This document shows positions 2,120 to 21,687 of a DNA stretch of 64,000 bases, in pieces. Each line of letters begins with the position of its first letter. Within the stretch, counting starts at the first letter, position 1. The translations under genes and the position numbers were made by a program. The notes below the pieces were generated by a model that searched no databases, was not told the origin of the DNA, and saw only the letters and a program-made list of their open reading frames with translations. The stretch is from an uncultured Halomicronema sp. GTDB taxonomy: Bacteria > Cyanobacteriota > Cyanobacteriia > Phormidesmidales > Phormidesmidaceae. Location: the NCBI GenBank assembly GCA_937899725.1, contig CALCCA010000040.1, positions 1 to 64,000 of the forward strand, given 5' to 3'.

Positions 2120-2122
2120 CGG

Positions 2123-2437: not shown

Positions 2438-2748
2438 AGTTTGAGACGTTGTTGAATAGGGTTCAATCAATTATTGAGGCAAACATCCTGGCTAGTGACC
2501 AACAGGCTAAAAAGGCCCGCATGCCATCACCCAAGACGCATCCTTACACCGCTGGTTTGACCTCAATCCTAGCCTCTGCCTTTAAGCCCAAAACAACCCA
2601 TTTCGGTCATTTCCCTGAAATTTCAGCCGGTCACTCACCACTGATGCCCACCCGGTTCAATACGGCCCCAAGCATCGCCCCCGCTGCAGCTTCAGTAACA
2701 GCTGTTTTTTTAGTGATGATTACAGTTATGCAGCACGAGCGAGCAGCC
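2438..2748. other. Intergenic, no clear feature
   Basis: This stretch lies upstream of the TCO1-like gene and downstream of the CPBP protease, both on the minus strand. It should hold the promoter of the protease-STAND operon, but no convincing -35/-10 pair was recognised. Open frames in it lack a ribosome site and a recognisable product. Confidence 0.5.
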
Positions 2749-6700: not shown

Positions 6701-6906
6701 TGGCCCAGGCGGCAGGCTTAGTGGCTGAGGTGGGGGGCAAACTATCCCACGGGGCGATCGTGGCGCGGGAGTATCAAATTCCGGCGGTGATGAATATTCC
6801 TGAGGCGACCCAACAGTTTCAAGACGGGCAAATGGTGCGCCTTGATGGCCGCGCCGGTACAGTCGAGCTGTTGACCGAAGCAACAGCAGCCGGGTCAATC
6901 ACTTGA
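3787..6906 (+). CDS. PlsY-like membrane domain fused to PEP synthase/pyruvate phosphate dikinase-like enzyme
   Basis: The 1039-residue product has two parts. Residues about 29-215 are hydrophobic and resemble the PlsY acyl-phosphate:glycerol-3-phosphate acyltransferase (VGSLP, LGTGNLSVSAAFYHGGTKLG, EAAKG). The usual GNPGATN loop and the GH motif are altered (GTGNLSVSAA, LGRYTLGG), so acyltransferase activity is doubtful. Residues about 235-520 are a PEP-synthase ATP-grasp domain (GNKAATLAQL, WIVRSSALDEDG, LLQARPI). After a middle region, the C-terminal 110 residues are a PEP-utiliser phosphohistidine domain with the His in VGGKLSHGAIVARE. This order resembles rifampin-phosphotransferase-like dikinases, with an added membrane anchor. 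The substrate is unknown. ATG 3787 has AAGG 8 bases upstream; ATG 3871 starts nearer the PlsY-like homology. Confidence 0.85.
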   Translation: MPEEGHDRRRVTRLWVTVATVDTAIGWPMTLSAGTALLLCAIAFAVGSLPIIDWLVRGLTQQRLAELGTGNLSVSAAFYHGGTKLGLLAVASEAAKGIGVVLLARSLFADSAPWELIALIALVLGRYTLGGSAGTTNVVWGYITHDWVIALATWVLSGLWFAIVRRRQPARLGVLVLLPLLEALRRPESPATIVAATGLSLLIAAIYQRLPDDLALTPSPPQSNTRPMFHFLRGQDVIGSLNDKPQAAQMGNKAATLAQLRRWGYAVPGGWILPQGSSGRSLVTHLESVESDPWQQPWIVRSSALDEDGAVVSGAGQYESIADVGSAADLIQAIDHCRQSYGQAAAAQYRRDRGLTDQTGLALLVQKQVPGLYSGVAFSRDPVEPGAAVVVEALAGGADQVVSGQVTPEQYRLEVDDAQLSEVSPSDLAQLEAAPAAASENGGTSLDSAANPIPPALIQQVAQLARHLELRYHGIPQDIEWSFDGETLWLLQARPITTLSPIWTRKIAAEVIPGVIRPLTWSINRPLTCGVWGDIFTIVLGDRAAGLDFGNTATLHYSRAYFNATLLGATFRRMGLPPESLEFLTLGSKFSKPPIGSTLQNVPGLLRLLRREWRLLQDFEQDDRQHFAPVLTHLRATPATTLTAPELLTRIDTILQQLQRATYYNILGPLSFALRRSLFKVPETDLDSRDQPEIASLQLVKALARSTREQYPDWVAATSTAVPTKQLLAQLADLPQGQTVLTALDEILERYGYLSEVGTDIAVPTWREDPQPVQTLFAQFLTNPPPEAASSEAAATDSSEDSSAPPTGWRYRQVQARLNLKGRVATVYLTLLAELRWSLLALIDQAIAQNRLQQPEDGFFLTDDELRASVATPAALSSEALQALVAARRSQFELHQAQTTVPFIVYGDEPPPTPLATSPVPPRSGILQGIGASAGQVQGPVRVLTTLQLSEPIAPGTIIVVPYTDAGWGPILAQAAGLVAEVGGKLSHGAIVAREYQIPAVMNIPEATQQFQDGQMVRLDGRAGTVELLTEATAAGSIT

Positions 6907-7246
6907 GGTGGTTTGGCTCAGTGTCGTGATTAGGACAACGAAGTCAGCGCATGGCCCCTATGGCCAGGCTCAACACAATTGGCTGTACACAGTCATCAAA
7001 AAGGTTGGTGATGTCGAGCGGCAATAGCAATGTCGGATCTTGATTTAGCCACGAGTTTCTTGTGGATGAATTTACCGTGACTTTAGACATGGGCTAATCG
7101 TGACTTATGGCTGATACTTTCTATTGGCAATTTTCTCTATTGTTTACGTAATCAGATGTTGTGAAACCTCAAGTTTCAGGTATCAAGAAACCCTTTAAAT
7201 GAGAGGTTCTCATGATGACGACTCTTTAGATTTTAGGAGCTGCAAA
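6907..7246. other. Intergenic region before the secretion/efflux island
   Basis: This stretch is AT-richer than its surroundings and has no open frame worth calling. It likely carries the promoter of the Pro-rich peptide gene, but no clear -35/-10 pair was recognised. The last bases hold the AGGAG ribosome site for the ATG at 7247. Confidence 0.5.
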
Positions 7247-7537
7247 ATGAAACTAAATCGAAAAGTCAAAGCCTTTGTAACCACAACGTTGGCGAGCGTT
7301 TCTTGCGCAGGCTTGATCACAGCGACAGCCGTTAGCGCACAAGCCTATGAGGTGGAGGGCAGACCGAACCGTGCTGTGTCTCAGAGAGTAGATAGGTCAG
7401 TGGCCCCACCGGCACCGCAACCAGCCCCCCGACCGGAGCCCCAGCCAGCCCCCCAACCAGCACCGCAACCAGCCCCCCAACCAGCTCAGGAACCGGCACC
7501 AAGGTCACCAGCCAAACTCACGATCACCATCGGCTAG
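7247..7537 (+). CDS. Small exported Pro/Gln/Ala-rich protein
   Basis: The 96-residue product starts at an ATG with AGGAG 7 bases upstream. It has a classic Sec signal peptide: KLNRKVK, a hydrophobic stretch, then AVSAQA. The mature part is short and low-complexity, dominated by repeated PAPQ units, and ends in KLTITIG. No catalytic domain is visible. Pro-rich repeats of this type often span or bind the cell wall, but the function is not recognised. It is the first gene of a run of exported proteins on the plus strand. Confidence 0.75.
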   Translation: MKLNRKVKAFVTTTLASVSCAGLITATAVSAQAYEVEGRPNRAVSQRVDRSVAPPAPQPAPRPEPQPAPQPAPQPAPQPAQEPAPRSPAKLTITIG

Positions 7538-7591
7538 CAGCCGGTGTTTATCGCCCCGCCAAATCATCCGCTACGTATCTGACCAAGCCAT

Positions 7592-7617
7592 AGGGCAAGA
7601 CTCTCTCTTCTTGCCCT
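7592..7617 (+). promoter_or_regulatory. Perfect 9-bp hairpin just before a lipoprotein start codon
   Basis: AGGGCAAGA (7592-7600) pairs perfectly with TCTTGCCCT (7609-7617) across an 8-base loop. It lies 54 bases after the previous stop and 10 bases before the ATG at 7628. There is no T-run after it, so it is a poor terminator. It may be a processing or stability stem, or may affect translation of the downstream lipoprotein, which lacks an obvious ribosome site. Confidence 0.5.
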
Positions 7618-7627
7618 GATAACTGCC

Positions 7628-8650
7628 ATGCCTCTAAAGCTGACCCCTCTCAGTTCTGTGATCACAGTCCTTTTGATGTCTCTCGCTTGTGCCCCAACTG
7701 CGCCGCTTGAGAGCACAGGCTCCGATGCGTCACCTACCGTCGATGCATCGGAGCCAATATCACCAGGGCTGAGTTCACCAGGTTCTATTACTCAGGGGTA
7801 TGCCCCGACAACCACAATAGAAAATTTGTTGGTTTGCTCGATGTCACGAGCCCGCGTCAGTGCTTTGGGCAGCATCACAGCAACTGACGGCACCGATTGG
7901 GTCGTGCCTGCAGCAAACAATTTTGAAATCGGCCCCAAAGCAGCTGATCTGTACAACGAGTGTACTCAAACGACCTATGAAAATATTCAAGCGGTCGATC
8001 TAGAGTCAATTCCTATTGTGGAAATTGATTCAGATGGTGAGATTATTACCGGCTATATCTTTGCCGATAATTATTTTGAGCTTTACGTCAATGGAGAGCT
8101 GGTTGCGGTTGATCCGGTGCCCTTTACGCCCTTTAATTCCAGTGTTGTTCGCTTCAAAGCCAAAGCACCCATCACCTATGCCGTTAAGCTCATTGACTGG
8201 GAAGAGAATCTCGGGTTAGGCACCGAAAGCAATCGAGGGACAGACTATCACCCAGGTGACGGGGGCTTTGTGGCTAGCTTTAGCGACGGCACTGTCACCG
8301 ATGCCAGTTGGAAAGCGCAGACCTTTTACATTGCACCACTGGAAAATCCAGAGAGCGTCAGAGAAAACGGACTTGTGCGCGATTCTTCCGCAGCCAACGC
8401 CAACAACCCTAGCTGTGATGAATCTTGCTATGCCCTGCATTATCCAGTCCCTGAAGACTGGTTTTCAGAGAGTTTTGATGCTGCTGGTTGGCCTGAGGCT
8501 GTGACCTATACCAATGCAGCGGTCAGCGTCGATAACAAACCGAGCTATACCAATTTTTCAGAGATTTTCATAGGGGCTGAAGCCAAATTCATCTGGTCTT
8601 CCAATCTAGTTTTGGACAATTTAGTGCTGGTCAAAAAAACCGTTGAGTAA
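7628..8650 (+). CDS. Exported lipoprotein of unknown function in YHYH gene cluster
   Basis: The 340-residue product has an N-terminal hydrophobic stretch and a lipobox ending at Cys21 (MSLAC), so it should be a lipoprotein. After an acidic Ser/Thr/Pro linker there is a beta-rich body (YFELYVNGELVAVDPVPF) and a C-terminal segment with paired cysteines (NPSCDESCYALHYPVP). It does not carry the YHYH motif. It directly precedes a YHYH-domain gene on the same strand. The function is not recognised; the layout resembles an extracytoplasmic ligand- or metal-binding protein (inference). Confidence 0.75.
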   Translation: MPLKLTPLSSVITVLLMSLACAPTAPLESTGSDASPTVDASEPISPGLSSPGSITQGYAPTTTIENLLVCSMSRARVSALGSITATDGTDWVVPAANNFEIGPKAADLYNECTQTTYENIQAVDLESIPIVEIDSDGEIITGYIFADNYFELYVNGELVAVDPVPFTPFNSSVVRFKAKAPITYAVKLIDWEENLGLGTESNRGTDYHPGDGGFVASFSDGTVTDASWKAQTFYIAPLENPESVRENGLVRDSSAANANNPSCDESCYALHYPVPEDWFSESFDAAGWPEAVTYTNAAVSVDNKPSYTNFSEIFIGAEAKFIWSSNLVLDNLVLVKKTVE

Positions 8651-8753
8651 TTTTTTGGTGGCGGTGAAACTGCTTAACAATTTGGCTGAAAATCACTCAT
8701 AAAACACAAGCTTATTTGCGCTATTTAGCATTTCTTTGACTGGAGCTATATCT

Positions 8754-10076
8754 ATGAAAAAAGTAGGACTAATCGTTCTGACATTGAGCGTTGCGATCGC
8801 GGTGATGGCATTCGGATTACATAGTCCAATGGCCCAGCAGGGTCACGAAAGTGTGCCTCAAGAGGTGGCCCAAGTCAGGCCAGAAGGTGGCCCACCCGCA
8901 GGCGGTTCACCCGGAGGCGGGCCGGGTGGCGATCGGCCAGCAGGTGACTTCGGGGAACCCATTGCCTCCACTGAGGCCGACACCTCGGGCGTCCTGTGCG
9001 ATGCCAGCACCAACGTGCTGAACGAGCAGTTGGGTCTGCAAAGTGAGGCCCAGTGGTCTTGTGCTGATGGGCAGCGGCAGCTAGTTGCCAACGGGGTCCC
9101 GCATCATCAAACGGGTGGACAGTTCGTGGGAGAGCGTAACCCCATTACGGCCCACGAGGTCAATGTCGCGCTGCCGCTGAATTCGGTTGCGCGTACGGGC
9201 GCTGGTCAGCGGAGTATAAACCCGGCCTATGCGCTGAACGGGGTGAAGTTTAACCCTGGGACGGGTGGGCGGTGTGCCTCCAATATCACCGATGTGTCTG
9301 AGTGCAGTTTGAGGCCCGGTAGCACTGGGGAGTGGACGATGGAAGCGCTCGGCCAATCAACCTTTGACTTTGGTGAAGATGCCAATCACGCCCATGTGCA
9401 GCGGGGTGGGGTCTATCACTATCACGGTATGCCCGAAGGCATGCTGTCAGAACAGAATTTGGCAGGCGAATCGATGCAGCTCATTGCTTGGGCGGTAGAT
9501 GGGTTTCCGCTCTATGCGCGCTATGGCTACAGCGCTCCCGAATCTAGCACCAGTGCCTTGCAGGCGATGGCACCGAGCTATCAATTGAAAGCCACGCCGG
9601 ATCCAGATCGTCCCAGTGTCGACCTCATACCCATGGGTACGTTTTCCCAAGACTATGAATATGTTGCAGGGTCTGGTGACCTTGACGAATGTAATGGCCG
9701 TTTTGCGGTGACGCCGGAATTCCCGCAAGGCGTCTATCACTACTACGTGACCGACGCTTACCCCTTCGTACAGCGCTGCGTGAAGGGAACGCCCGATCCG
9801 TCGGCCCGGCGCGGCCCAGCTGAGGATGGTGGGACTGAGGATGGTGGGCCGCCTGACGGTGATGGATCGCCTGGCGGGGGTGGCGGTTCACCTCAAGGGA
9901 ATGCACCACCCGATTTTTCTGAGGCCGCAGAGCAACTGGGCGTTTCTGAGGCGGCGCTTAGTCAGGCCATCCAAGCAGCGGGGGGACGCCAAGCCGATTT
10001 CTCCGAAGTCGCAGAGGCGTTAGGCATTGACGAAGCTGATTTGCGGGAGGCGCTGCCACCGAGGCCAAATCGATAG
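8754..10076 (+). CDS. Secreted YHYH-domain protein, copy 1
   Basis: The start is the ATG at 8754, with GGAG about 10 bases upstream. The 440-residue protein has a Sec signal peptide (MKKVGLIV onward, ending near MAQQ) and a Gly/Pro-rich linker. A YHYH domain follows with the motif YHYH at about 221-224 and the flanking pattern HAHVQRGG. Further family features are DGFPLYARYGY, a DLDECNG segment and VYHYYVTDAYPFVQRCVKGTPD. The C-terminus has two related helical units (DFSEAAEQLGVSEAALSQAI and DFSEVAEALGIDEADLREAL) after a Gly-rich spacer. YHYH proteins are exported and of unknown biochemistry; the clustered His, Asp and Cys residues suggest metal binding (inference). Confidence 0.85.
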   Translation: MKKVGLIVLTLSVAIAVMAFGLHSPMAQQGHESVPQEVAQVRPEGGPPAGGSPGGGPGGDRPAGDFGEPIASTEADTSGVLCDASTNVLNEQLGLQSEAQWSCADGQRQLVANGVPHHQTGGQFVGERNPITAHEVNVALPLNSVARTGAGQRSINPAYALNGVKFNPGTGGRCASNITDVSECSLRPGSTGEWTMEALGQSTFDFGEDANHAHVQRGGVYHYHGMPEGMLSEQNLAGESMQLIAWAVDGFPLYARYGYSAPESSTSALQAMAPSYQLKATPDPDRPSVDLIPMGTFSQDYEYVAGSGDLDECNGRFAVTPEFPQGVYHYYVTDAYPFVQRCVKGTPDPSARRGPAEDGGTEDGGPPDGDGSPGGGGGSPQGNAPPDFSEAAEQLGVSEAALSQAIQAAGGRQADFSEVAEALGIDEADLREALPPRPNR

Positions 10077-10393
10077 AGGGGGATACGACTCGGACAGATT
10101 GATGATGCCAACACGACACAACACACAAATAAACAGGGTTTTATGTGCCGCCCACGTAGAGAAGGTCATTTACCTGATTTAGGATCGGGAATTTAATAAT
10201 GTGCTAGTTTCTCCCCTCTCGGGAGGGGTGCCGTAGGCGGGGTGGGTTTGATCCCCAGCACTCATGGTCAACCCACCCCGCTGCCCCTCCCAGGAGGGGA
10301 AATGTGATTCCACTGTGCCTCAGGCCAAATTGTGGAATTTATATAATCCCTTGTTCCTTATGCCTAGATGAATGTCCTGTTTTAACAAGTACT
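10077..10393. other. Intergenic region with REP-like hairpin
   Basis: Apart from the long inverted repeat at 10212-10300, no gene is seen. A GTG at 10304 is open into the downstream CDF gene and has AGGAGGGG before it. However, that purine run is the arm of the hairpin, and the added residues (Cys-rich) do not look like the family, so ATG 10394 is preferred. Confidence 0.55.
10212..10300. repeat. Long imperfect inverted repeat, REP-like
   Basis: The left arm (10212-10248) and right arm (10270-10300) are reverse complements except for a short insertion in the left arm and a few mismatches. Each arm contains its own small C/G-rich hairpin (TCCCCTCTCGGGAGGGG and CCCCTCCCAGGAGGGG), and the inner halves pair as GCGGGGTGGGTT with AACCCACCCCGC. 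This architecture is like dispersed palindromic repeats common between cyanobacterial genes. Whether other copies exist in this genome cannot be seen from the window. Confidence 0.7.
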
Positions 10394-11434
10394 ATGACAC
10401 AACTTTTTAGTTCGATTGAGGTGCCTCAACTCACCAGACTCAAGGTAGAGCCTCACTCCCATCATCATGGCGATTCGACCCATACCCACGGGGTCATCGA
10501 TCCGGAAATCGCGAGTTCTGCCCTCGGCATCTGGGCGGTGAAATGGTCTTTGGTGGGCTTGCTACTCACGGCCATTGTCCAGGCGGGGATATTTTGGCTT
10601 TCGGGGAGTGTGGCGCTCCTGGCCGATATGATTCACAACGTCGGGGATGCCATGACCGCCGTACCTTTGGGGGTGGCGTTCCTCGTCTCCCGACGAAAGC
10701 CCACACCCAGATTTTCCTATGGCTTGGCTCGATTGGAAGACTTGGCCGGGGTCATGATTGTGGCAATTATCTTGTTGAGCGCCATCATTACCGCCTATGA
10801 GTCTATAGAACGGTTTTACCATCCTCAGCCCCTGCACCATTTGGGAGCCTTAGCCATCGCTGGCTTGGTCGGCTTCATCGGTAACGAAATTGTGGCTGTT
10901 TTCCGCGTTCGGGTAGGGCGGAAAATCAACAGTGCTGCCCTGATAGCCGATGGCTACCATGCGATGGCCGATGGTTTGGTCAGTCTGGCGGTGGTGCTCA
11001 GTGCCGTGGGTGTTAGTTTGGGCTATTCCTGGGCTGATCCGGTGATTGGTTTAGCGATCGCCGCCGTGTTGCTCAAAATTGTTTGGGAGTCGGGACAGAC
11101 GATTTTTAGTCGCTTGCTCGATGGCGTGGAACCAGAGGTACTAGACTCACTCCACCATGCGATCGCTCATGTACCTGAAACTGAAGCGTTCGCAGAGCGT
11201 GGCATTAGCCGTATCGCAAATCTGCGGACTCGCTGGCTCGGGCATCGGCTCCATGTAGAGATGGACATGATGCTACCGCCTCACCTTGCCCTCCAGGCAA
11301 CTCAAGAGATTACTCATACCGTAGAACAGCAACTGAAAGCCCAGGTGCCTTATCTCGGTTTAACCGTGGTCAGAGCCGTACCTGGCACTGGAGACAGCGA
11401 AGGAGAGAGCAGAGAGCAGGGCAAGGAAAACTAA
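10394..11434 (+). CDS. Cation diffusion facilitator (CDF) metal exporter with His-rich N-terminus
   Basis: The 346-residue protein has six hydrophobic helices and the two HxxxD metal sites of Zn/Cd-type CDF carriers: HNVGD in helix II and HAMAD in helix V. A His-rich tail precedes helix I (HSHHHGDSTHTHG). The cytoplasmic C-terminal domain is present (about residues 250-330). CDF proteins exchange divalent metal for protons across the inner membrane. It lies between two YHYH genes on the same strand, which suggests a shared metal theme. The exact metal (Zn, Cd, Co, Fe) cannot be fixed from the sequence. Confidence 0.9.
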   Translation: MTQLFSSIEVPQLTRLKVEPHSHHHGDSTHTHGVIDPEIASSALGIWAVKWSLVGLLLTAIVQAGIFWLSGSVALLADMIHNVGDAMTAVPLGVAFLVSRRKPTPRFSYGLARLEDLAGVMIVAIILLSAIITAYESIERFYHPQPLHHLGALAIAGLVGFIGNEIVAVFRVRVGRKINSAALIADGYHAMADGLVSLAVVLSAVGVSLGYSWADPVIGLAIAAVLLKIVWESGQTIFSRLLDGVEPEVLDSLHHAIAHVPETEAFAERGISRIANLRTRWLGHRLHVEMDMMLPPHLALQATQEITHTVEQQLKAQVPYLGLTVVRAVPGTGDSEGESREQGKEN

Positions 11435-11493
11435 CTGATCGAGCCAAAAAATTGGCTCATTGTGGCCCAGTACGTTGAGAAAGGAAATTGACA

Positions 11494-12591
11494 ATGCCAG
11501 TGCAACATAGCAAACAGATCGGTCGGGTCTTGCGCGCCGCTAAGCTGACCATAGCCATGGTGCTGCTGATCTGGGGCTGCTCTAATGTGGGGCAAAGTTT
11601 ACCCACCGACTTGGGGCAAAGTTTACCCACCGACTTGGCGCAAAGTTCGCCAACAGACTGCGCCACCGCTGAAGCGGCTTTTGAGTCACATCTCGATCCT
11701 GGGGCCACTAATTGTACGGCTGACTTCCTGGAGGTAACCGCTACCGGTCTGCCTGATTTGACGTCTGGCAGTAGCGAAGATCTCCCCATGGTCGGCATTC
11801 TGTCTTGGATCCAAAGAGTGGCGGTCCCCTACGATTACCGCTGGCGGATTCCCCTTACCCCTGCTTGGCTCACTGCACCCGTTGCAGCCAGCGCGCGTGG
11901 CCCCATCGCGGTGGCAGTTGATGGGGTGCCCATTTTCCATTACGAGCGCCGACCCGATGTTTCAACGTCACTCGCTAACTACGAGGAGCGTAATGACACT
12001 GTTGTTCAGGGCGAATTAGACCAGTGTGGGGGCCACTCAGGGCAAGGAGAAGACTATCACTACCATTACGCACCGCTTTGTTTGATGGATGAGCATAATC
12101 CTGAACTGCCGATCGCCTTTGGCCTTGACGGCGCTCCCGTCTATTTCGGTGAAGGGGGCGATGACTATTATGGCCGGGGGCGATACAGCGATCTGAGTTA
12201 CCTGCCGGATGAAGCACTGGATGAGTGCAACGCGCTGCAGTTACCAGAGGGGGGATTTGTCCATTTCACCACCAAAACCCCGCCTTATGTTGTCGGTTGC
12301 CATCACGGGTCTTTTGACCCTGAGCTGCAAATCGAACCGCCCCCCTTCGATGCCCTAGCGCAGCGCACCCCCAGCCCGCTGGGGGGTAGCTATGGTGAGC
12401 CAGTCTCCACGCTGCTCACAGATTTTGAAGAAAATGGAAATGGCGAATATCGGTTGGCTTTTGATTCTTTAACCACGCCTGGAGCAACGAGTGCAATTGT
12501 GTATCGCCAGACTTCAGCAGATTGTTGGGAGTTTGCATACCAACTCGTTGCGGGTGAAACAGGACAGACGACAGAAGCCTGCCGACATTAG
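11494..12591 (+). CDS. YHYH-domain lipoprotein, copy 2 (divergent)
   Basis: The ATG at 11494 has AAAGGAAA upstream; a TTG two codons earlier is less likely. The 365-residue protein has a lipobox ending at Cys29 (LLIWGC). A three-unit repeat GQSLPTDL follows, then a YHYH domain with YHYHY at about 188-192. Near it are FGLDGAPVYFG, a LDECN segment and FVHFTTKTPPYVVGCHHG, which correspond to the DGFP, DLDECNG and Y-YVT-YPYV-C-G features of the other copies. The extra C-terminal 90 residues are beta-rich with one Cys pair. It is more divergent than the other two copies. The biochemical role is unknown. Confidence 0.82.
   Translation: MPVQHSKQIGRVLRAAKLTIAMVLLIWGCSNVGQSLPTDLGQSLPTDLAQSSPTDCATAEAAFESHLDPGATNCTADFLEVTATGLPDLTSGSSEDLPMVGILSWIQRVAVPYDYRWRIPLTPAWLTAPVAASARGPIAVAVDGVPIFHYERRPDVSTSLANYEERNDTVVQGELDQCGGHSGQGEDYHYHYAPLCLMDEHNPELPIAFGLDGAPVYFGEGGDDYYGRGRYSDLSYLPDEALDECNALQLPEGGFVHFTTKTPPYVVGCHHGSFDPELQIEPPPFDALAQRTPSPLGGSYGEPVSTLLTDFEENGNGEYRLAFDSLTTPGATSAIVYRQTSADCWEFAYQLVAGETGQTTEACRH
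11589..11660 (+). repeat. Three tandem 24-bp units behind the lipobox
   Basis: Units 11589-11612 and 11613-11636 are identical, and 11637-11660 is a degenerate third copy. Each encodes eight residues (GQSLPTDL, GQSLPTDL, AQSSPTDC) in the linker just after the lipidated Cys of YHYH copy 2. Such units can change number by slippage and alter linker length. Confidence 0.9.
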
Positions 12592-12653
12592 CCATTACAT
12601 ATCAGATACAGCAGAATACCCTTTGGAAAGGGCCATGCCCTGACGAATTTTGG

Positions 12654-13304
12654 TTAGCTTAAACCGTTCTCTACCGCGTAGATAGCGGCCTGAGTGCGAT
12701 CGCGCAGATCTAGCCGCATCAAAATGTTAGAAACATGATTTTTGACCGTGCCCTCACTCACATAGAGGGCTTGAGCAATGCCTTTATTCGTAGTTCCTTT
12801 GGCGAGCAGTTTTAAGACCTCCAGTTCTCTCGCGGTCAGCGGTGTCTCGATTGGCGGTTTGGCCACAAACTCTGGTTTATGTTTGAGGGCTCCGATCAGT
12901 TTACCGGCGACCTCAGGGGCTAGCTGATAAACCCCGGCATGGGCCAGTTTAATGGCTTGAACCAGGTCTTGAGGCGGAATGTCCTTCATCAAGTAGCCAC
13001 AGGCTCCGGCGAGAAGCGACTGCACGATAAACTCTTCATCATCAAAGGTGGTGAGCATAATGATTTGGCAAGTGGGTAGGGCTTGCCTGATCTGGGCGGT
13101 GGCTTCCACGCCATTCATTTCCGGCATCCGCACGTCCATGAGAATGATGTGCGGTTTGAGGTCAAGGGCTTGAGCGATCGCCTCTTGACCATTACCGGCG
13201 ATACCCACGACTTCAACCGCTGCTTCCAGTTCTAGCAAAGAGGCAATGCCTTCTCGAATCAGGTACTGGTCATCGACCAGCAGAATGCGGATTTTTGCCG
13301 TCAT
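12654..13304 (-). CDS. NarL/FixJ-family response regulator
   Basis: The 216-residue protein has a receiver domain with the acidic pair Asp11-Asp12, phospho-acceptor Asp57 (ILMDVRMP) and the conserved Thr/Lys switch residues. A LuxR-type HTH follows (LTARELEVLKLLAKGTTNKG, VSEGTVKNHVSNIL). It overlaps the 3' end of the kinase gene by 4 bases, so the two are translationally coupled. It should bind DNA when phosphorylated. Likely targets are the flanking YHYH and efflux genes (inference from position). Confidence 0.93.
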   Translation of the reverse strand: MTAKIRILLVDDQYLIREGIASLLELEAAVEVVGIAGNGQEAIAQALDLKPHIILMDVRMPEMNGVEATAQIRQALPTCQIIMLTTFDDEEFIVQSLLAGACGYLMKDIPPQDLVQAIKLAHAGVYQLAPEVAGKLIGALKHKPEFVAKPPIETPLTARELEVLKLLAKGTTNKGIAQALYVSEGTVKNHVSNILMRLDLRDRTQAAIYAVENGLS

Positions 13305-14644
13305 GGGATTGATTCCGTATTTAAGCTAGCCAGAATATTGGTCTGAGAATGGGATTGAGGAATCTTGATCGTCAGCGTTGTCGCTTGGGGCTGACTGCTG
13401 ATATCAAGGGTGCCCCCCACCAAAGTGAGCCGTTCCTGCAAGCCAATTAATCCATGGGTGGTCTGTTCATTGCCGCTCGCTTTCCAAGCCGCAACATCAA
13501 ACCCCAAACCATTGTCTGTCAGGTCTAGCGTGGCGACTTGAGAATCGAAATTGAGCGCGATCGCGACGTGGCTGGCCTGGGCATGCTTATGCACATTGGT
13601 CAGCCCTTCTTGAATTACCCGGTACAGGGTCATCAGCTTGAGTCGGCTGTAGTGCGAGCTGTCTCCTGTTTGAGTCAGTTTCAACTCAAGTTCACTATGA
13701 CGCAGGCGGCGGAGTAAGTCGTCAAGAGCCTCTTGAAATAAGAAGGGTTCACTGTCTTGACGCAGACTGCCGACCGACTCCCGCACATCTTTTAAGGCCG
13801 CTTGGACAGTGCGTTGCGCATGATCTACCGCTTCATAGGCCCGGTTTGGGTCGCGTTCTCGGTAGGCATTAGCTTTTGCTAACTGAATATTAATTGCGGC
13901 CAGATGATGACCCAGACTATCGTGAATGTCACGTGCTAAGCGGTTCCGTTCTTCGGTGGCCGCTAAATCAGCCACCCGCGCGGCATAGTGCTGCAGTTGG
14001 GTGTGGGAGGCTTCGAGTGAGGTCAACAAACCCACCAACTTTTGCTGAGCTTGAGTCGCTTGGGATATCGCGCGGGCTAATAGCAACGTAAAAAACAGGG
14101 CGATGAGTGAGCCCATGCTTTCATCAATCAGTCGGCTCAAGGGCGGGGGCCGCCTCGGCGGTCTGCCATCCACTGCTGGCGGCGGCAAGAGTGATCCTCC
14201 CAGGTCACTAAAGTCAGAGGATTTGAGTCCTAAAAGAGTAACGACTGCCAGAATCGCGATGAAATAGCTCAAGCGTTTATCAACGGCTAAGTGGCTATAT
14301 AAAAGAATGGGTAAAAACAGGATCTGCGAGTAGGTCAGATCAGTGACTAAGCAAGCGCCGACAAATAAAAGTATGCGGATAAGAAAGGGCATCAGCTTAC
14401 CCCGCTTGGCCTGATTTGCCGAGGTAAAATCAGCCTGCCCCACGGCCTTTATTTCAAGCCCGATGAGCGCCAGCACCATCGCCACAAAAACCAAAAACCG
14501 ATACTGCTCGGGGGCGCTCACCAGCGATCGCGGCCCAATGCCGCCATAGATCCAATCGACGAAACCGGCCAACAGCACGGCGGTGTAAACCGCTAGAGCA
14601 ATCAAGCGGTAACGCTGATAAAGCAGGTTCAGTGCCTGAGCCAT
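13301..14644 (-). CDS. NarL-type sensor histidine kinase (HisKA_3)
   Basis: The 447-residue protein (ATG 14644; an upstream GTG is possible) starts with about five membrane helices joined by short loops. One loop is Pro/Arg-rich (GRPPRRPPPLS). A coiled stretch and a HisKA_3 dimerisation/phosphoacceptor segment follow, with the His in RLARDIHDSLGHH, and then an ATPase domain (NVHKHAQASHV, DNGLGFDV, GLIGLQERL). There is no large periplasmic sensor domain, so the signal is probably sensed in the membrane or through a partner protein. It is transcribed away from YHYH copy 3 (start 14826), and the 180 bases between them are a likely shared regulatory region. Confidence 0.92.
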   Translation of the reverse strand: MAQALNLLYQRYRLIALAVYTAVLLAGFVDWIYGGIGPRSLVSAPEQYRFLVFVAMVLALIGLEIKAVGQADFTSANQAKRGKLMPFLIRILLFVGACLVTDLTYSQILFLPILLYSHLAVDKRLSYFIAILAVVTLLGLKSSDFSDLGGSLLPPPAVDGRPPRRPPPLSRLIDESMGSLIALFFTLLLARAISQATQAQQKLVGLLTSLEASHTQLQHYAARVADLAATEERNRLARDIHDSLGHHLAAINIQLAKANAYRERDPNRAYEAVDHAQRTVQAALKDVRESVGSLRQDSEPFLFQEALDDLLRRLRHSELELKLTQTGDSSHYSRLKLMTLYRVIQEGLTNVHKHAQASHVAIALNFDSQVATLDLTDNGLGFDVAAWKASGNEQTTHGLIGLQERLTLVGGTLDISSQPQATTLTIKIPQSHSQTNILASLNTESIP

Positions 14645-14825
14645 TGAGGAAAACCTGGGTGTGAGGTTAACCCTATCAAAAAGCACAGCAGAATCTCAGA
14701 TCTAGGCTGAGGTTTAGCCAGAGGACCCATGACCTTTGGCCATCTCAATTTAACTATTTGGCACATGCTAAGACCCGGCAGCTGATTTTATTCTCAAACC
14801 ACAGATAGCTCAGGCGATTTGTCCG

Positions 14826-15887
14826 ATGAGAAATCATTTTTCTGCCATTCACTTATCGAAGCTCGAAGGTTTCTTAGGACTGCTGATTTTACTCCCGCTT
14901 GCGGCCTGTACGTATGCCTCATCTCCCCGTGATGTGGTGGGCATCGTCGTTGGGGTCGAAGATTTCAGCACAGGCAGAGTGAGCGATGTTGAGGTGATTG
15001 ATATTACGGGGACGACCCTGACGAGCCGGAGCCGCAACTGCGCGGATTATGTCGCAACCTACAACGCCGAAGCGATCGAGCTCCCCAGCAATACTGTTTT
15101 CATCGGTTCACTGACCATCAGCGTTGAGAATGACCACTGTATTTTTACGTCTAATGCCATCCCCAACCATGACATGAACGACGCCAATACCTTTGCGACA
15201 CCGGTATCAGAGCAGCACAAAGTTTATCGGGTGACGACCAGTCCCCAACCCAACCGCCAGGCCACGGCGCTCAGCCCGCAGTACGACAATGCCGTTTTGC
15301 TCAATGGCGTCAAAGTTGACTCATTATCGGGCGGGTGCTTTACCGTTCGCCTAGGCTGCCGTGACGCCACCATCCCGTGGCGATACAACGCGATATCACC
15401 CCTGAGTTTCTTAAAAACAGATGCTCACCATGCGCATACTCAACCCAACGGCGAGTATCACTATCACGGCAATCCTCATGCCTTGTTTGACGATAGCGAT
15501 AACAGCAAGGTCTCTCCCGTCATTGGCTTTGCTGCCGATGGGTTTCCCATTTTTGGTTCTTACTTTGATGACAACGGCAACATTCGCAAAGCGCTCTCCA
15601 GCTATCAGCTCAAAAGGGGAGAGCGGCCCTCGGGTGAGGGCAATCCCGGCGGTACTTACGACGGCGAATTCAATGACGATTACGAATATGTCGAGGGCGC
15701 TGGCGACCTGGATGACTGTAATGGCATGACGATTGATGGCATTTATGGTTACTACGTCACCGAGGACTATCCGTATGTCATCGTCTGCTATCGGGGCACG
15801 CCTGACAACTCTTTTCGGAAGACGGGTAGCGGTGGTCAATCGAGAAGCCCCTCTGGCGGGGGCGAGTTGCACGGCGGGAGTCAATAA
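14826..15887 (+). CDS. YHYH-domain lipoprotein, copy 3
   Basis: The 353-residue product has a lipobox ending at Cys28 (LPLAAC) and a YHYH domain with YHYH at 211-214, preceded by a His-rich HHAHTQPNGE. The full family pattern follows: FAADGFPIFGSYF, YEYVEGAGDLDDCNG, GYYVTEDYPYVIVCYRGTPD. An N-terminal beta-rich region (35-110) is extra. The gene is divergent from the two-component system and lies 47 bases before the MacA-like adaptor on the same strand. It may therefore head an operon with the efflux genes. The fold is unassigned; metal or ligand binding is inference. Confidence 0.85.
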   Translation: MRNHFSAIHLSKLEGFLGLLILLPLAACTYASSPRDVVGIVVGVEDFSTGRVSDVEVIDITGTTLTSRSRNCADYVATYNAEAIELPSNTVFIGSLTISVENDHCIFTSNAIPNHDMNDANTFATPVSEQHKVYRVTTSPQPNRQATALSPQYDNAVLLNGVKVDSLSGGCFTVRLGCRDATIPWRYNAISPLSFLKTDAHHAHTQPNGEYHYHGNPHALFDDSDNSKVSPVIGFAADGFPIFGSYFDDNGNIRKALSSYQLKRGERPSGEGNPGGTYDGEFNDDYEYVEGAGDLDDCNGMTIDGIYGYYVTEDYPYVIVCYRGTPDNSFRKTGSGGQSRSPSGGGELHGGSQ

Positions 15888-15934
15888 GATTTTTGACCAC
15901 GCTGGTCCCTCATGGCAGGAGTCCTTCCACAGAT

Positions 15935-17374
15935 ATGAATTCTATGAACTTGCGATCGCCCCAAACATCAGAGACGGTTTCCCCATCACCGGTAGCACTT
16001 GCTTTCAAGCAGCGTCAGAAACATCAACTCGCACAAGGTGTCGCGGGCCTCTGCCTTTGCGGTCTCCTGGCTGGTGGTGGCTATCTGCTCTATCGGCAGT
16101 TTGTGCTGTTGCCCCAGCAGCAGGAACAAGCCCAAACACAGACAGTTGAGGTTGAAACCGCCACCCTACCGATTACCGTGGCGGCCAATGGCACGGTGGA
16201 AGCGGAGCAACTGACCAATGTCAGCCCTAAAACTGCAGACCGCTTAGAGCGCGTGATCGTGGTCGAGGGTGATGCCGTCGAAGCCGGTCAAGTTTTAGCC
16301 TATATGGACGATTCTGACCTGCAGGGCCAACTGATTCAGGCCGAAGGGCAACTTGCCGAAACCCGTGCCAATCTGGCGATGCTCATCGCCGGTAACCGGC
16401 CCCAAGAAATCGCTCAAGCCGAGGCTAACCTGGCCAGAGCCGCAACCAGCTTCAGCCAGGCTGAGGAAGATTTGCGCCGCTATGAGGTGCTTTATGAGCA
16501 GGGGGCGGTCTCGGCCCAAGAAACGACGAGCTATCGTACCGCTCGCGATACGGCTCAGGCCGAGGTCAAAAGCGCGCAGCAGGCACTCAATCTCAGTCAA
16601 TCAGGTAGCCGTCAAGAGGAGATCGCCCAGGCCGCCGCCACCGTCACACAAGCGGAAGGGGCTTTGACCACGATCGCTACGCAGATGGCAGATACAGTGA
16701 TTCGGGCTCCTTTTGGTGGCATTGTGACGGCTCGCTATGCTGACCCCGGCGATTTTGTCTCGCCCTCAACGGCGGCCAGTGAAACTTCTTCTTCTTCGTC
16801 ATCTTCGATTCTCTCGTTAGCCTCTAACTATCAGGTGGTCGCTAACGTGGCCGAAACCGATATTGCGCAGATTCAAACCGGACAACTGGTCAATATCCAA
16901 GCCGATGCTTACCCCGATCAACAGTTTGAAGGCACCGTGGCCCAGGTGGCCGAGCAGGCTACCGTCAGCTCAAACGTGACCAGTTTTGAGGTGCGGGTCA
17001 ATCTAGCTGCCGCAGCGCAGTCACAGCTACGACCAGGGATGAATGTCGATGTCGAATTTCAAGCGGGTGAACTGACGAATGTGCTGGTGGTACCGACCGT
17101 TGCCGTCGTACGAGAGGAGCAGGGAGAGGGTGTTTTGGTGTTAACCGCCGATGGGACACCACAATTTCAGCCCATTGAAACGGGCTTAACGGTGAATGAT
17201 CAAACGGCCGTGATCGCCGGCCTAGGGGGAAATGAAAAGATTGTTTTAAGCGCGGCTCAGGGACTCCCGGAAAATCGACAAAATCGGGGCGGGCCGCCGC
17301 TACTACCAGGCGGCGACTCTGGGGGTAGCCCTAGCGGTGGCGGTGCCCCCGGAGGGGGCGGCTCCGATGGTTAA
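15935..17374 (+). CDS. HlyD/MacA-type periplasmic adaptor (membrane fusion) protein
   Basis: The 479-residue protein has one N-terminal membrane helix (about residues 35-55), a lipoyl-like half-motif (VIVVEGDAVEAGQVLAYMDD) and a long coiled-coil hairpin rich in Ala/Gln/Glu. The second lipoyl half follows (ADTVIRAPFGGIVTAR), then beta-barrel and membrane-proximal domains. The Gly/Ser-rich tail is unusual. Such adaptors join an inner-membrane pump to an outer-membrane channel. Starts at 15935 or 15944 are both possible. Its stop overlaps the start of the permease gene, consistent with one operon. Confidence 0.9.
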   Translation: MNSMNLRSPQTSETVSPSPVALAFKQRQKHQLAQGVAGLCLCGLLAGGGYLLYRQFVLLPQQQEQAQTQTVEVETATLPITVAANGTVEAEQLTNVSPKTADRLERVIVVEGDAVEAGQVLAYMDDSDLQGQLIQAEGQLAETRANLAMLIAGNRPQEIAQAEANLARAATSFSQAEEDLRRYEVLYEQGAVSAQETTSYRTARDTAQAEVKSAQQALNLSQSGSRQEEIAQAAATVTQAEGALTTIATQMADTVIRAPFGGIVTARYADPGDFVSPSTAASETSSSSSSSILSLASNYQVVANVAETDIAQIQTGQLVNIQADAYPDQQFEGTVAQVAEQATVSSNVTSFEVRVNLAAAAQSQLRPGMNVDVEFQAGELTNVLVVPTVAVVREEQGEGVLVLTADGTPQFQPIETGLTVNDQTAVIAGLGGNEKIVLSAAQGLPENRQNRGGPPLLPGGDSGGSPSGGGAPGGGGSDG

Positions 17375-18656
17375 GAGCCGGCAGCCAGAGCCACTAGCGG
17401 CCATCCAGTTGCCCGCGATTTCGGTGATGGAGATTTTGGCGATGGCGATCGCCGCCCTGTGGAGTAACAAACTGCGAACAGCCCTCACCATGTTGGGCGT
17501 CATCATTGGCATTACCGCTGTGATTGCCGTGACCTCTGTGGGGCAAGGCGTGCAGTCTGCCACAGCCGCGAATTTGCAGAACCTCGGCGCAGATTTGTTG
17601 CAGGTACGGGCTGGGGCGGCGAATACCGGTAACGTCAGCCAGGGCAGTGGGAGTGCCACGACGCTGACATGGAGTGATGCCCAAGCGATTGAATCGCAGG
17701 TGGCGGCAGCGGGGACAGTCACGGCCTATTTGCAGCAAACCACTCAAGTGGTTTATGCCGAGAACAATCTTTCCACGACCGTTTTAGGCACCGACACCAA
17801 CTACGCAGCGGTCAACAATATTACGCTACAATCGGGGCGTTTTTTCACCTCCGATGAACTGGCGGCAGCCCAGTCAGTGGCCGTATTAGGGCCGACGGTA
17901 CGAGCTGATTTATTCGGCAGCGATCGTGAGCCCATCGGTGAAAAAATTCGCCTGCAAGGACAGCGGTACACCGTGGTTGGCATTGCTAACGAGAAGGGGG
18001 CTCAAGGCCGAGAAAATCCGGATGAACAGATCTATGTGCCGCTCACCAATATGTCAGCTCGCTTGGTCGGCAACAACGCCCTGAGCGGCATTGCGGTTCA
18101 GGGCATTGCCGTCAAAGTGACCGAGCAAGCCCAGTTAGAAGCGGCTGATTTTCAAATTACCAATCTCCTGCGAGTACGCCACAACATTCACCCCGCCAGA
18201 GGTGATGAGGATGATTTTCGGATTGTGAGCGCGGCCAACCTCGTTGAAACCCTGACGAGTACCGTGGGACTTTTTACGATTATGGTGGTGGCGATCGCCG
18301 CCATCTCCCTCATCGTCGGCGGCATTGGCATCGCCAATATCATGCTGGTGTCGGTGGTCGAGCGCACCCGCGAAATTGGCATCCGGAAGGCGGTCGGGGC
18401 GACCGACCACGCGGTTTTGAGTCAGTTTTTGGCCGAAGCGATCGCTATTGCTGCGGCTGGCGGTGTTTTAGGTGTGGGGCTCGGCGTGGCGATCGCTCGG
18501 ATTGCCGCCACGCTATTCGACTTTCCGTTTGTGATTTCTCTCTGGGCGATCGCCCTGGGGGTGGGCCTCTCTTTTGCCATTGGCATCGTCGCCGGGGTGA
18601 TTCCGGCCCGCAGCGCCGCCAAATTAGACCCAATTATTGCCTTAAGAAGCGATTAG
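17367..18656 (+). CDS. MacB-like ABC transporter permease (FtsX domain)
   Basis: The 429-residue protein has the MacB layout: a first helix after residues SNKLRTALTMLGVIIGITAV, a large MacB periplasmic core (about residues 60-290), then three C-terminal helices of the FtsX family. These include the coupling segment VVERTREIGIRKAVGAT. Its ATG overlaps the stop of the adaptor gene by 8 bases. In the MacAB family such permeases do not move substrate across the inner membrane but drive export from the periplasm. The substrate here is unknown. Confidence 0.92.
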   Translation: MVKSRQPEPLAAIQLPAISVMEILAMAIAALWSNKLRTALTMLGVIIGITAVIAVTSVGQGVQSATAANLQNLGADLLQVRAGAANTGNVSQGSGSATTLTWSDAQAIESQVAAAGTVTAYLQQTTQVVYAENNLSTTVLGTDTNYAAVNNITLQSGRFFTSDELAAAQSVAVLGPTVRADLFGSDREPIGEKIRLQGQRYTVVGIANEKGAQGRENPDEQIYVPLTNMSARLVGNNALSGIAVQGIAVKVTEQAQLEAADFQITNLLRVRHNIHPARGDEDDFRIVSAANLVETLTSTVGLFTIMVVAIAAISLIVGGIGIANIMLVSVVERTREIGIRKAVGATDHAVLSQFLAEAIAIAAAGGVLGVGLGVAIARIAATLFDFPFVISLWAIALGVGLSFAIGIVAGVIPARSAAKLDPIIALRSD

Positions 18657-18755
18657 TCCTCTACGGCAGAAACGCTCAATTTCTTTGCCCTCTTGCTCCC
18701 TTGCGCTCGGCAATGGTTGATGCAATAACACCACAGTCTACTCACAGGACTCATT

Positions 18756-19463
18756 ATGGCCGCCATGATTTGGCTAGAAGGGATTCGTAAAACCTATCGC
18801 TTGGGCGAAGTCGATGTACCGGTCTTGAAGGGCATTGATCTGACCATCGCGGAAGGTGACTATGTCGCGATTATGGGCGCCTCCGGATCGGGCAAATCGA
18901 CCCTGATGAACATCATCGGTTGCCTCGATCGCCCTTCGACAGGTCACTATGTGCTCGAAGGACGCAACTTAACCACGCTGAGTAATGAAGGGCTGGCCTA
19001 CATTCGCAATCAGCGCATCGGCTTCGTGTTTCAACAGTTCAACTTGCTACCGCGCTCAACGGCCTTAGAAAACGTCATGCTACCCCTGGTTTATGCCGGC
19101 GCAACTCGTCGACAGCGACGCCAGCAGGCAGCAAGAGTTTTGACCCAGGTGGGGCTAGGCAATCGCCTGAGCAACCGACCCAGCCAACTTTCGGGGGGAC
19201 AACAGCAACGGGTGGCGATCGCCCGTGCCCTCGTCAATCGTCCGGCTTTAGTGTTGGCTGACGAACCGACGGGGGCGCTCGATACCCAAACCTCTCACGA
19301 AGTCATGGCCCTCTTTACCGAACTCAACCGCCAGGGCATTACCGTCATCATCGTGACCCATGAGCCTGACATTGCCGCCCAAACGCACCGGATCATTCAG
19401 GTTCAAGATGGCCTACTGCAAAGAGAGAAAGCACCCAGGGCGACCTCAATTAGACCTGATTAA
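18756..19463 (+). CDS. MacB/LolD-type ABC transporter ATPase
   Basis: The 235-residue ATPase has Walker [10 protein letters not shown], the signature [15 protein letters not shown], Walker [13 protein letters not shown] and the switch His in IIVTHEPD. Its length is typical of the LolD/MacB-type subfamily encoded apart from the permease. It follows the FtsX permease by 100 bases and completes a split MacAB pump with the adaptor at 15935. An outer-membrane channel is not encoded nearby and would have to be shared (TolC type). Confidence 0.95.
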
Positions 19464-19898
19464 GACATCGCAAATCGCGGTTAGGGCGTCGATGTAATAA
19501 GCCTGAAATCTATAGCCTGTGCGCATTGCTAACTCGACAAGATGTTCAGAGCTGTATGTCTGCTGCCATCTGGATCGAACCGGTCAGCTCATAGAACTTG
19601 TCAGTCCGAAGTGCCGATGAAATTTCTGCCTCGTCTGTTATCCAAGCCGTTGTCTGTACCAAGGTAATGAGCTGGGTCGGGGAATGAGGAAATCCCTGGG
19701 GTTGATTGATGTCCTTAATTTGAAGCGACAGCACCCCCGATCGCGACTAATAGAGGGAGGCCATGTCAGCGCAGATATATATCTGTCGGATTACTGTATT
19801 GAGTCTGATGATAGGTTCACCATTCTTTTCAAACTTCTAACATTCATATTCTCAGCAACATCGAGATATAGGCACAAGCAAAATTCGGAGATTTACTG
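19464..19898. other. Intergenic, no clear feature
   Basis: This 435-base stretch is less GC-rich toward 19780-19890 (ATATATATCTG, TCATATTCTCAG). It probably includes the promoter of the small acidic lipoprotein, but no convincing promoter hexamers or coding frame were identified. Confidence 0.5.
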
Positions 19899-20465
19899 AT
19901 GAAACACTTGATTCAGAATGTTCTGCCTACCAAAACGGCAAAGGTTGTAGGCACTTTAGCTCTCGCTTCGATGACACTGTTGACGGTAGCCTGTGCGCCG
20001 CAAGCGGAAGATCCCGGTGATGTCGGCGCTGACATTGAGGAACCTGGAGAACCAGCGGAAGTCCCTGAAGGCATGGAACTGAATGCTGCCGTACCTGATG
20101 ATGAGACCACAGCAGTTGATGAGGATGCACCGGTTCTCCCAGACATTGACGTTGACATTAGCGAGACTGACCTCACGGACCTGGTGGGTGAGACGGTCAC
20201 CGTCAGCACAGAAGTCACGGAAACTCTGTCTCCCAACGTCTTCACCGTCTACGATGTAGAGTCGTTTCGCGGAGAGGAAGTTCTAGCAGTGACTGATTTA
20301 CCAGCACCTGAAGCGGGCGACAACATTGAGGTCACTGGCGAAATCATGGAACTCGACGTCGTGGTGCTTGAGACTGACTACGGCATTACATTAGACCCGG
20401 ATATTGTCGCTGTGTATGATGGCAAGCCCTATCTAGCGGTTGAAGCGCTAGAGGTTGTGGACTAA
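19899..20465 (+). CDS. Small acidic lipoprotein, OB-like
   Basis: The 188-residue product has a lipobox ending at Cys32 (LLTVAC) and a very acidic linker (Asp/Glu/Pro-rich, residues 35-90). A beta-rich domain follows (VGETVTVSTEVTETLSPNVF, DNIEVTGEIMEL) that looks like an OB-type barrel, as in some bacterial lipoproteins with repeated GETVTV strands. No catalytic motif is seen. It is probably monocistronic, the last exported protein of the island. The function is not recognised. Confidence 0.78.
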   Translation: MKHLIQNVLPTKTAKVVGTLALASMTLLTVACAPQAEDPGDVGADIEEPGEPAEVPEGMELNAAVPDDETTAVDEDAPVLPDIDVDISETDLTDLVGETVTVSTEVTETLSPNVFTVYDVESFRGEEVLAVTDLPAPEAGDNIEVTGEIMELDVVVLETDYGITLDPDIVAVYDGKPYLAVEALEVVD

Positions 20466-20586
20466 TCGCCACAGCGCTTTTTGATCAACCGGTTCAAAGC
20501 CGCAGTTAGCGAGTTCACAAGATTAATACAGAAGCCACACACGGAGCAGATATCGCGCAGCTAGTGGCCTCGTCGGCTCAAAGCAG

Positions 20587-20621
20587 ATTGCCCCAAGCGC
20601 ACAGTTTGCACTTGGGGCAAT
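20587..20621. terminator. Strong hairpin between convergent genes
   Basis: ATTGCCCCAAGCGC (20587-20600) pairs with GCACTTGGGGCAAT (20608-20621), with a single mismatch and a 7-base loop. It lies between the converging lipoprotein and heme oxygenase genes. There is no T-run on either side, so it may act as a bidirectional 3' end or processing stem rather than a classical terminator. Confidence 0.5.
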
Positions 20622-20693
20622 ACCAGGAAAAGGATTAAGGACGACGGGCACGATCTCAATATTTTCGATGACGGCTGCGATCGCTAACGAAAA

Positions 20694-21410: not shown

Positions 21411-21687
21411 GCTCAACATTCCAATGTGTATTTAAGCCGATATGGCGGCGGCGTCCTTAAATAAAGATTTAAAGCCATAACCGTTACAGTAAGGGGGATT
21501 GATGAGGGTTTTCATTACATTTTTTTACGCCCAGATACATATAGTTACCTAATCTCGTGTCTACGAGGCGGCGACGGTCACGCTTAGGGCTAAGACGGTA
21601 GCCCAACAGACGATTAGGCAGCCGCCAAATAAATCTGCTTGACGTTTGTTCACACCAGGCTAGGTCAAACTCAGTTAAGGGCGATCG

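Follow-up and report, generated by a model that had tools for sequence, protein, structure and literature searches.

Three YHYH lineages, a CDF exporter and a MacAB-type pump on an inserted block of a Halomicronema genome: a candidate extracytoplasmic metal-handling module

Gene content of the island

The window analysed here is a 64,000-nucleotide stretch from an uncultured Halomicronema sp. (assembly GCA_937899725.1, contig CALCCA010000040.1), and this report concerns a 13.8-kb block inserted in it, hereafter the island, which carries three unlike proteins with the YHYH domain (PF14240) and may serve to handle metal outside the cytoplasm. These three, YH1, YH2 and YH3, are the only PF14240 matches in the 7.0-Mb source genome, and all lie inside the island cluster (genomes and loci are cited below by our G and L handles; the source genome is G000). 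Along the plus strand come a small exported protein, the lipoprotein lip7628, YH1, a CDF cation exporter and YH2; a regulator and a kinase follow on the minus strand, and after the kinase come YH3, an adaptor, a MacB-type permease, an ABC ATPase and an acidic lipoprotein, all on the plus strand. The YHYH proteins, the CDF exporter, the split MacAB-type pump, the NarL-type two-component system and the lipoproteins all fall within 13 kb:

6869..20687, no strand: inserted block (island), 13.8 kb; its flanks are adjacent in G387 and G389
3787-6906, plus: left flanking gene, outside the island
7199..7537, plus: small exported Pro-rich protein, likely start 7247; no Pfam family
7628..8650, plus: lipoprotein lip7628; no Pfam family
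8736..10076, plus: YH1, exported YHYH protein of the type I clade; PF14240; C-terminal LGVSEAxLxxAL-type repeats by eye
10210..10300, no strand: palindromic repeat element in the YH1-CDF gap; 41 matches in the genome including itself
10394..11434, plus: CDF cation exporter; His-rich N-terminus, two HxxxD sites (HNVGD, HAMAD)
11488..12591, plus: YH2, YHYH lipoprotein of the YH2 clade; PF14240; lipobox
12654..13304, minus: response regulator of NarL/LuxR type; Response_reg and GerE
13301..14686, minus: sensor kinase; HisKA_3 and HATPase_c; hydrophobic N-terminal part, Pro/Arg-rich loop PPPAVDGRPPRRPPP
14826..15887, plus: YH3, YHYH lipoprotein of the YH3 clade; PF14240; first gene before the pump genes
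15893..17374, plus: periplasmic adaptor (membrane fusion) protein; the real start is probably a little downstream of 15893
17337..18656, plus: MacB-type permease without fused ATPase; MacB_PCD and FtsX
18756..19463, plus: ABC ATPase, a separate gene
19899..20465, plus: acidic lipoprotein of no family, at the island's right edge; possibly outside the system
20694-21419, minus: right flanking gene, heme-oxygenase-like (named by eye), outside the island

The initial annotation had described three unlike YHYH proteins (one exported, two lipoproteins) within 13 kb, a His-rich CDF exporter, a split MacAB-type pump and a two-component system placed between YHYH copies, and the profile searches bear this gene content out. 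Against PF14240 (gathering cut-off 25 bits), YH1, YH2 and YH3 score 205.9, 53.3 and 176.5 bits; of its 193 positions YH1 covers 4-193 and YH3 2-193, while YH2 covers only 1-109. By eye, the signal peptide of YH1 is an ordinary one, and YH2 and YH3 carry the lipoboxes LIWGC and PLAAC. The CDF protein, whose start is ATG 10394 and not GTG 10304 (backed by the G442 orthologue), scores 134.8 against Cation_efflux (cut-off 26.6) and 192.5 bits against TIGR01297 (cut-off 82.35). HxxxD sites in transmembrane helices 2 and 5 mark Zn-type CDF exporters. The genome holds a second CDF copy (G000:C7:71129-72085, 65% identity), whose reading frame is interrupted by a TGA and which may be a pseudogene. In the pump, the permease scores 157.4 and 77.3 bits against MacB_PCD and FtsX, and the adaptor, of RND_mfp type, 159.3 against a cut-off of 94.9. 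The kinase resembles MctS, UhpB, NarQ and LiaS kinases, with every score under the curated cut-off (LiaS equivalog: 65.1 bits, cut-off 450).

The YH3 and kinase genes are divergent and separated by 139 bp, so that YH3 and the pump would be the first candidate target of the regulator. Promoter- and terminator-like sites were no more frequent than in shuffles. The gap between YH1 and the CDF gene is shorter in G442, about 100 bp, and the palindromic element may be missing from it. Elsewhere in the window, a Trypsin-like peptidase with an NB-ARC domain (974-2470, minus strand) adjoins a Trypco1 (trypsin-co-occurring) protein; the two look like a conflict- or defence-type pair, and their PADLOC matches are weak and mainly concern the peptidase part. 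Reading frames that look by eye like a heme oxygenase and GlgC are in line with a cyanobacterial source.

Insertion and distribution in cyanobacterial relatives

In two genomes of the same genus, G387 and G389, the genes flanking the island lie about 0.3 kb apart, and homology with the window ends at 6866/6868 and resumes at 20688/20693. The same two genes are far apart or on separate contigs in G170, G388, G442 and G420, so that the empty site rests on two genomes. Judged from these alignments, the 13.8-kb block is an insertion, and its genes share more than a chance proximity. G390 probably had or has the block as well, since a single 4.3-kb contig holds both its heme-oxygenase-like protein, 99% identical to the window's, and an ATPase 96% identical to the window's; no YHYH genes turned up in this fragmented assembly. 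By eye, none of the island genes looked like an integrase or transposase, no dedicated search having been made.

YHYH proteins are rare among cyanobacteria, with matches in 6 of 386 sampled genomes of the phylum and in 7 of 63 in the family (G000 belongs to both counts). The YH1 lineage is found in four family genomes, each with a relative of the small protein and lip7628, at least as a fragment, before YH1. G442 has the row YH1-CDF-YH2 at 84-89% identity beside an OmpR-type two-component system, and its CDF and YH2 reading frames overlap. YH1 of G389 is directly followed by adaptor, permease and ATPase genes (80-86%), with an OmpR-type system adjoining. G420 keeps YH1 and a broken YH2; about 8 kb off, fragments of an ATPase and of a kinase are joined (L019 / L177), and the same region holds a regulator of full length, at 94% identity to that of the window. 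This junction looks as if the part with YH3 and the pump had been deleted. As far as these gene rows tell, YH1, YH2, the CDF exporter, the pump and the sensor travel in changing company, four genomes having four subsets. The remaining YHYH-bearing genomes of the family (G394, G402 and G438) have other YHYH types. Within the family, linkage of the CDF gene to YH1 was seen in G000 and G442 alone, and a MacAB-type operon at YHYH loci in G000 and G389 alone, in addition to the ATPase fragment of G420. At E≤1e-40, 27 of 60 family genomes hold a relative of the CDF exporter; identity is mostly 58-71%, and the majority of these genomes have no YHYH match.

YHYH lineages, ancestry and predicted structure

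YHYH domains occur in many bacteria and cyanophages, and their presence in diatoms has been reported (PMC11992049). From a scan of genome contigs with a YH1-type alignment, which confirmed at least 576 stretches, the 80 best were kept as the set of type I loci. In a tree that omitted 18 of 54 proteins because their profile match was short, as well as copies of listed loci, YH1 nests inside the Sphingomonadales group of the clade that bears the partner protein described below; support for the Sphingomonadales-cyanobacterial grouping is 100/100, and the tree neighbour of YH1 is L028 (67% identity). YH1 was most likely acquired from the direction of Sphingomonadales, to judge from this topology, and vertical inheritance of YH1 in cyanobacteria was rejected because of the same nesting. 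A second tree, of 38 hand-picked rows, separates the YH1, YH2 and YH3 clades with support of 100/100, 100/99 and 100/99. A single insertion in one genome thus brings together three distinct YHYH lineages.

The structure of the YH1 domain was modelled from an alignment of 74 rows, in which 68 of the 80 scan loci were used (L033, L040, L045, L049, L051, L058, L059, L070, L072, L079, L090 and L092 were left out). The model reached a predicted local distance difference test score (pLDDT) of 91.7 and a predicted template-modelling score (pTM) of 0.90; a model from a 6-row alignment (pLDDT 33.1) was discarded. In a Foldseek search of the PDB the model found nothing at E≤0.001 (best E 2.9), and a second look with VIA gave no Z≥2 among 114 chains. 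Models of viral YHYH proteins match the predicted YH1 fold with E down to 2.6e-17. Nine residues are invariant across the 74 sequences (YH1 numbering): H124, H220, H228, H230, D215, D255, D306, D317 and C319. The initial annotation held that YHYH proteins have no assigned biochemistry, a statement that needs a qualifier, since a paper of 2021 predicts a hydrolase that depends on Zn (PMC7824862). The conserved His triad and Asp of that prediction are present in YH1, and the invariant His and Asp residues fit the Zn site proposed there.

The lipoprotein lip7628 is tied to YH2 by its relatives. In L221, one reading frame combines a lip7628-like N-terminal part, 55% identical to lip7628 over 217 residues, with a PEBP domain and a YHYH domain that is sister to YH2; weaker relatives of lip7628 stand next to YH2-like genes in L029 and L227, and L218 has one as a fusion. 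PEBP/YbhB (Phosphatidylethanolamine-binding) domains adjoin or are fused to YH2-like YHYH proteins in L026, L169 (by eye), L221 and L234. Repeats of the LGVSEAxLxxAL type recur, by eye, in or beside YHYH genes, at the C-terminus of YH1, in L017:12962-13540 and in the upstream open reading frame of L218; one of the repeat-bearing cases is an exported protein of G442 with a His cluster (also by eye).

A partner with an N-terminal histidine and sensor kinases beside YHYH genes

Clustering all neighbours of the 80 type I loci brought out one dominant partner, which stands directly downstream of the YHYH gene (same strand, less than 700 bp) in 59 loci; of the others, 19 lack it and 2 run into a contig end. 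A C-terminal HupE/UreJ-2 permease domain is present in 33 of these partners and absent from 26, the 33 having been assigned by similarity to L028 and L096, with Pfam run on L028 alone (HupE_UreJ_2, E=5e-40). The partner carries a single EF-hand-like loop. With cleavage sites read from the sequence without a trained predictor, the first residue of the mature protein would be His in 58 of the 59 partners (AQA|HLM and the like; 55 by pattern, 3 by eye) and Tyr in the remaining one. A crude signal-peptide rule placed His at position +1 in 29 of 39 partners versus 6 of 180 other exported proteins of the same loci, two of these six (L043 and L084) sitting directly after a YHYH gene. It replaced a still cruder rule (22/37 partners, 6/150 background), and both were set up after the pattern had been seen, so that the figures are a description and not a blind test. 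Near YHYH and partner, a TonB-dependent-receptor-like protein of one family was noticed in 4 of the 80 loci (L050, L051, L077 and L082).

The other two clades also have such neighbours. Two of the eight YH3-like loci of a random gammaproteobacterial sample (L209, L211-L215, L222 and L225), namely L214 and L225, have a HupE_UreJ_2 protein next downstream (E=2e-40 and 2e-43, respectively); its N-terminal His was read by eye in both and called by the rule as well in L225. Three YH2-clade genes precede exported proteins that probably start with His once mature, as called by the rule for L084 and only by eye for L169 and L170; in L226, L227 and L026 (rule) and Loktanella L234 (eye) the YHYH protein itself would begin with His. 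Applied to the random samples, the rule gave His at +1 in 6 of 22 YHYH proteins versus 1 of 17 neighbours. Furthermore, plasmid unnamed7 of Deinococcus sp. KNUC1210 carries in a row an annotated YHYH protein, a HupE/UreJ family protein whose N-terminus reads ASA|HLM by eye, and a kinase-type protein; two other plasmid YHYH genes that were inspected have no such partner. An N-terminal His domain with a HupE/UreJ-2 part is the plan of the anglerases, described in 2025, in which the Ang-1 domain binds Cu2+ (Kd ~74 nM) and Ni2+ (220 nM) (PMC12537917).

Sensor kinases of an OmpR-linked family (above 150 bits) gather next to the type I genes: 14 matches lie at 0-3 kb (126 flanks reach this far), 1 at 3-6 kb (101 flanks) and 1 at 6-9 kb (90 flanks). 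Kinase and regulator both occur within 6 kb in 14 of the 80 loci, and one of the two in 3 more. At least three consecutive prolines are found in the N-terminal part of 13 of 16 YHYH-adjacent kinases (L028, L029, L030, L031, L033, L044, L072, L073 and others), a count for which no control kinases were run; the NarL-type kinase of the window and the G442 kinase also have Pro runs, by eye.

Proposed function and alternative explanations

We propose, with a confidence somewhat short of even, that the island is a horizontally assembled extracytoplasmic metal-handling module in which the CDF exporter and the pump replace the permease. The invariant His/Asp cluster of YHYH would bind a transition metal, and the domain would hold it outside the cytoplasm and pass it to, take it from, or buffer it with a second metal protein. 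Elsewhere this second protein would be the N-terminal-histidine protein, often with HupE; in the island its place would be occupied by the CDF exporter, working from cytoplasm to periplasm, and the MacAB-type pump. Since the CDF exporter and the pump stand where HupE_UreJ_2 is lacking, the flow would probably be outward, carrying excess metal or a compound loaded with metal. On sensing metal or envelope stress, the two-component system would induce YH3 and the pump, and perhaps YH1-CDF-YH2. The metal may be copper or nickel, by analogy with the published look-alikes of the partner, or zinc, according to the HxxxD sites of the CDF exporter. We also put forward, with more doubt than belief, that YHYH could be the missing extracytoplasmic half of a widespread metal relay, made of YHYH, an anglerase-type protein with N-terminal His, a HupE/UreJ-2 permease and a dedicated sensor kinase, and that some cyanobacteria would have re-formed the relay with a CDF exporter and a MacAB-type pump at its core. 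The metal reading is supported by the occurrence of N-terminal-His neighbours elsewhere in all three clades (often fused to HupE/UreJ-2 for YH1 and YH3) and by the clustered kinases. A conserved partner with the architecture of a measured Cu/Ni binder turns this into a narrow, testable hypothesis for an unknown domain.

Several results weigh against the metal module. The initial annotation had suggested a metal-related envelope system and looked to co-occurrence of YHYH with CDF and MacAB genes across genomes: the metal part gains from the neighbours and kinases just mentioned, whereas YHYH, CDF and MacAB do not form a conserved set, no such co-occurrence having turned up, in the loci searched, outside this cyanobacterial family. 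Indeed, a neighbour search at E≤1e-8 in the 80 type I loci (flanks up to 10 kb, many shorter) found no match to the window's adaptor or permease, two partial CDF matches 7-8 kb off (L050 and L051, close relatives), two matches to the window-type regulator, one of them also with a kinase match, and six weak ATPase matches. In the random alpha- and gammaproteobacterial loci, with about 1.5 kb per side, there was no CDF, adaptor or permease match, and the ATPase, kinase and regulator had 1, 2 and 1 matches. Links of CDF and MacAB to YHYH were seen in a few cyanobacteria only, and the 80-locus search led us to reject the idea that YHYH genes in general have the window's CDF or MacAB for partners. 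A search of seven intergenic stretches of the island turned up no operator in common; only one self-palindrome passed. Furthermore, HupE_UreJ_2 has no match in G000, G389 or G442, and no protein with an N-terminal His was noticed by eye in the island.

The partner itself is of limited range. In the random alphaproteobacterial sample, YHYH proteins occur in 25 of 240 genomes, and besides the centre the partner was found in 0 of 24, four weak matches within YHYH genes (L123, L127, L128 and L129) being set aside; the partner as a property of all PF14240 proteins was rejected on this sample. In the gammaproteobacterial one (YHYH in 17 of 274 genomes), an adjacent N-terminal-His partner was seen by eye in 3 of 16 besides the centre (L207/G766, L214/G743 and L225/G882), and the rule called only L225. 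Neither sample holds a clear type I member besides the centres, so that the rate of 59 in 80 belongs to the type I clade only, and within that clade it is inflated by related species, such as ten Pseudoalteromonas records. A clade of 13 rows (Bacteroidota, Marinimicrobia and Gammaproteobacteria) has no counted partner, one of its loci, L080, being cut, although L043 has an N-terminal-His neighbour. Most YHYH genes of the random samples look solitary within 1.5 kb per side. The earlier signal-peptide rule put the cleavage elsewhere in L169 and L170, and none of the 8 type I scan YHYH proteins called has an N-terminal His of its own. Finally, a phmmer comparison of the partner's N-terminal domain with the solved Ang-1 structure gave nothing at E≤1, and a profile search with this domain returned, among the 60 of 316 matches listed, almost only EF-hand proteins.

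The chief rival to the metal module, in our view less probable than not, makes YHYH an extracytoplasmic enzyme, a hydrolase or another, that depends on metal and acts on envelope or external polymers, with the N-terminal-His/HupE partners loading or scavenging its cofactor; the island would then be an envelope-modifying kit with an envelope-stress sensor and a pump. Such an enzyme was predicted from the conserved His triad and Asp and from phage tail and lectin fusions (PMC7824862), although the hydrolase is a prediction there and no assay was seen. It would suit a single sulfatase-YHYH protein of a family genome (L021:2399-4645) and the sulfatase-like neighbours, seen by eye, of the YH3-like genes in L211 and L222, which count against the metal module, as well as the baseplate or structural YHYH homologues of cyanophages. 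Many of the invariant residues are not typical ligands, and the YH1 model is confident without a PDB match, which is consistent with an enzyme; the absence of a recognisable catalytic fold argues the other way, and the adjacent HupE permeases and kinases point to metal traffic instead. We consider it unlikely that the island is a mosaic in which a MacAB-type efflux operon with a LiaRS/NarL-like sensor, directed at antimicrobial peptides, lipids or drugs, has YHYH, the CDF exporter and the lipoproteins as bystanders on a mobile block. The differing subsets in G000, G389, G442 and G420, the CDF relatives that are common without YHYH and the sub-threshold likeness of the kinase to MctS, UhpB, NarQ and LiaS would all agree with such a mosaic. 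Mere bystanders are, however, hard to square with the L221 fusion, of which lip7628 and YH2 each resemble one part (its YHYH domain being the sister of YH2), with a pump directly preceded by YH3 in G000 or by YH1 in G389, or with the overlapping CDF and YH2 reading frames of G442.

Comparison with known systems

In the open-licence PMC literature we found no tested function for YHYH and no paper linking it to HupE/UreJ-2 or to the island's partners, subscription papers and preprints lying outside this search. YHYH does not occur in the main text of the anglerase paper (PMC12537917). In a Sphingobium strain, nickel up-regulates a gene resembling HupE/UreJ as well as a metal-sensing pair whose regulator is of the OmpR family (PMC5557971). 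The phage YHYH proteins of jumbo phages, cyanophages and pelagimyophages (PMC7824862, PMC7029224) belong to the same domain family as the island's; several of the phage copies are part of baseplate or structural proteins, whereas those of the island are exported or lipid-anchored cellular proteins.

The likeness to Ang-1/Ang-2 is closest in the 33 of 59 YHYH partners that share a signal peptide, an N-terminal His, an extracytoplasmic domain of about 180 residues and a C-terminal HupE_UreJ_2 domain, while the other 26 lack the permease domain and the window genome lacks HupE_UreJ_2. As compared here, the resemblance between partner and anglerase is one of architecture, N-terminal His and permease family. 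With E. coli MacAB-TolC (MacB, PRK10535) the island shares an adaptor, a MacB_PCD/FtsX permease and an ATPase; it differs in having the ATPase on a separate gene, and its permease reaches 241.9 bits against the MacB equivalog, below the cut-off of 966. The regulators of the Synechocystis copMRS and nrsRS loci are of the OmpR type. Like the island, copMRS-copBAC and nrsRS-nrsBACD place an export system under a two-component system, and they export by HME-RND or MFS proteins, where the island has YHYH proteins, a CDF exporter, a MacAB-type ABC pump and a NarL-type regulator (PMC4284471).

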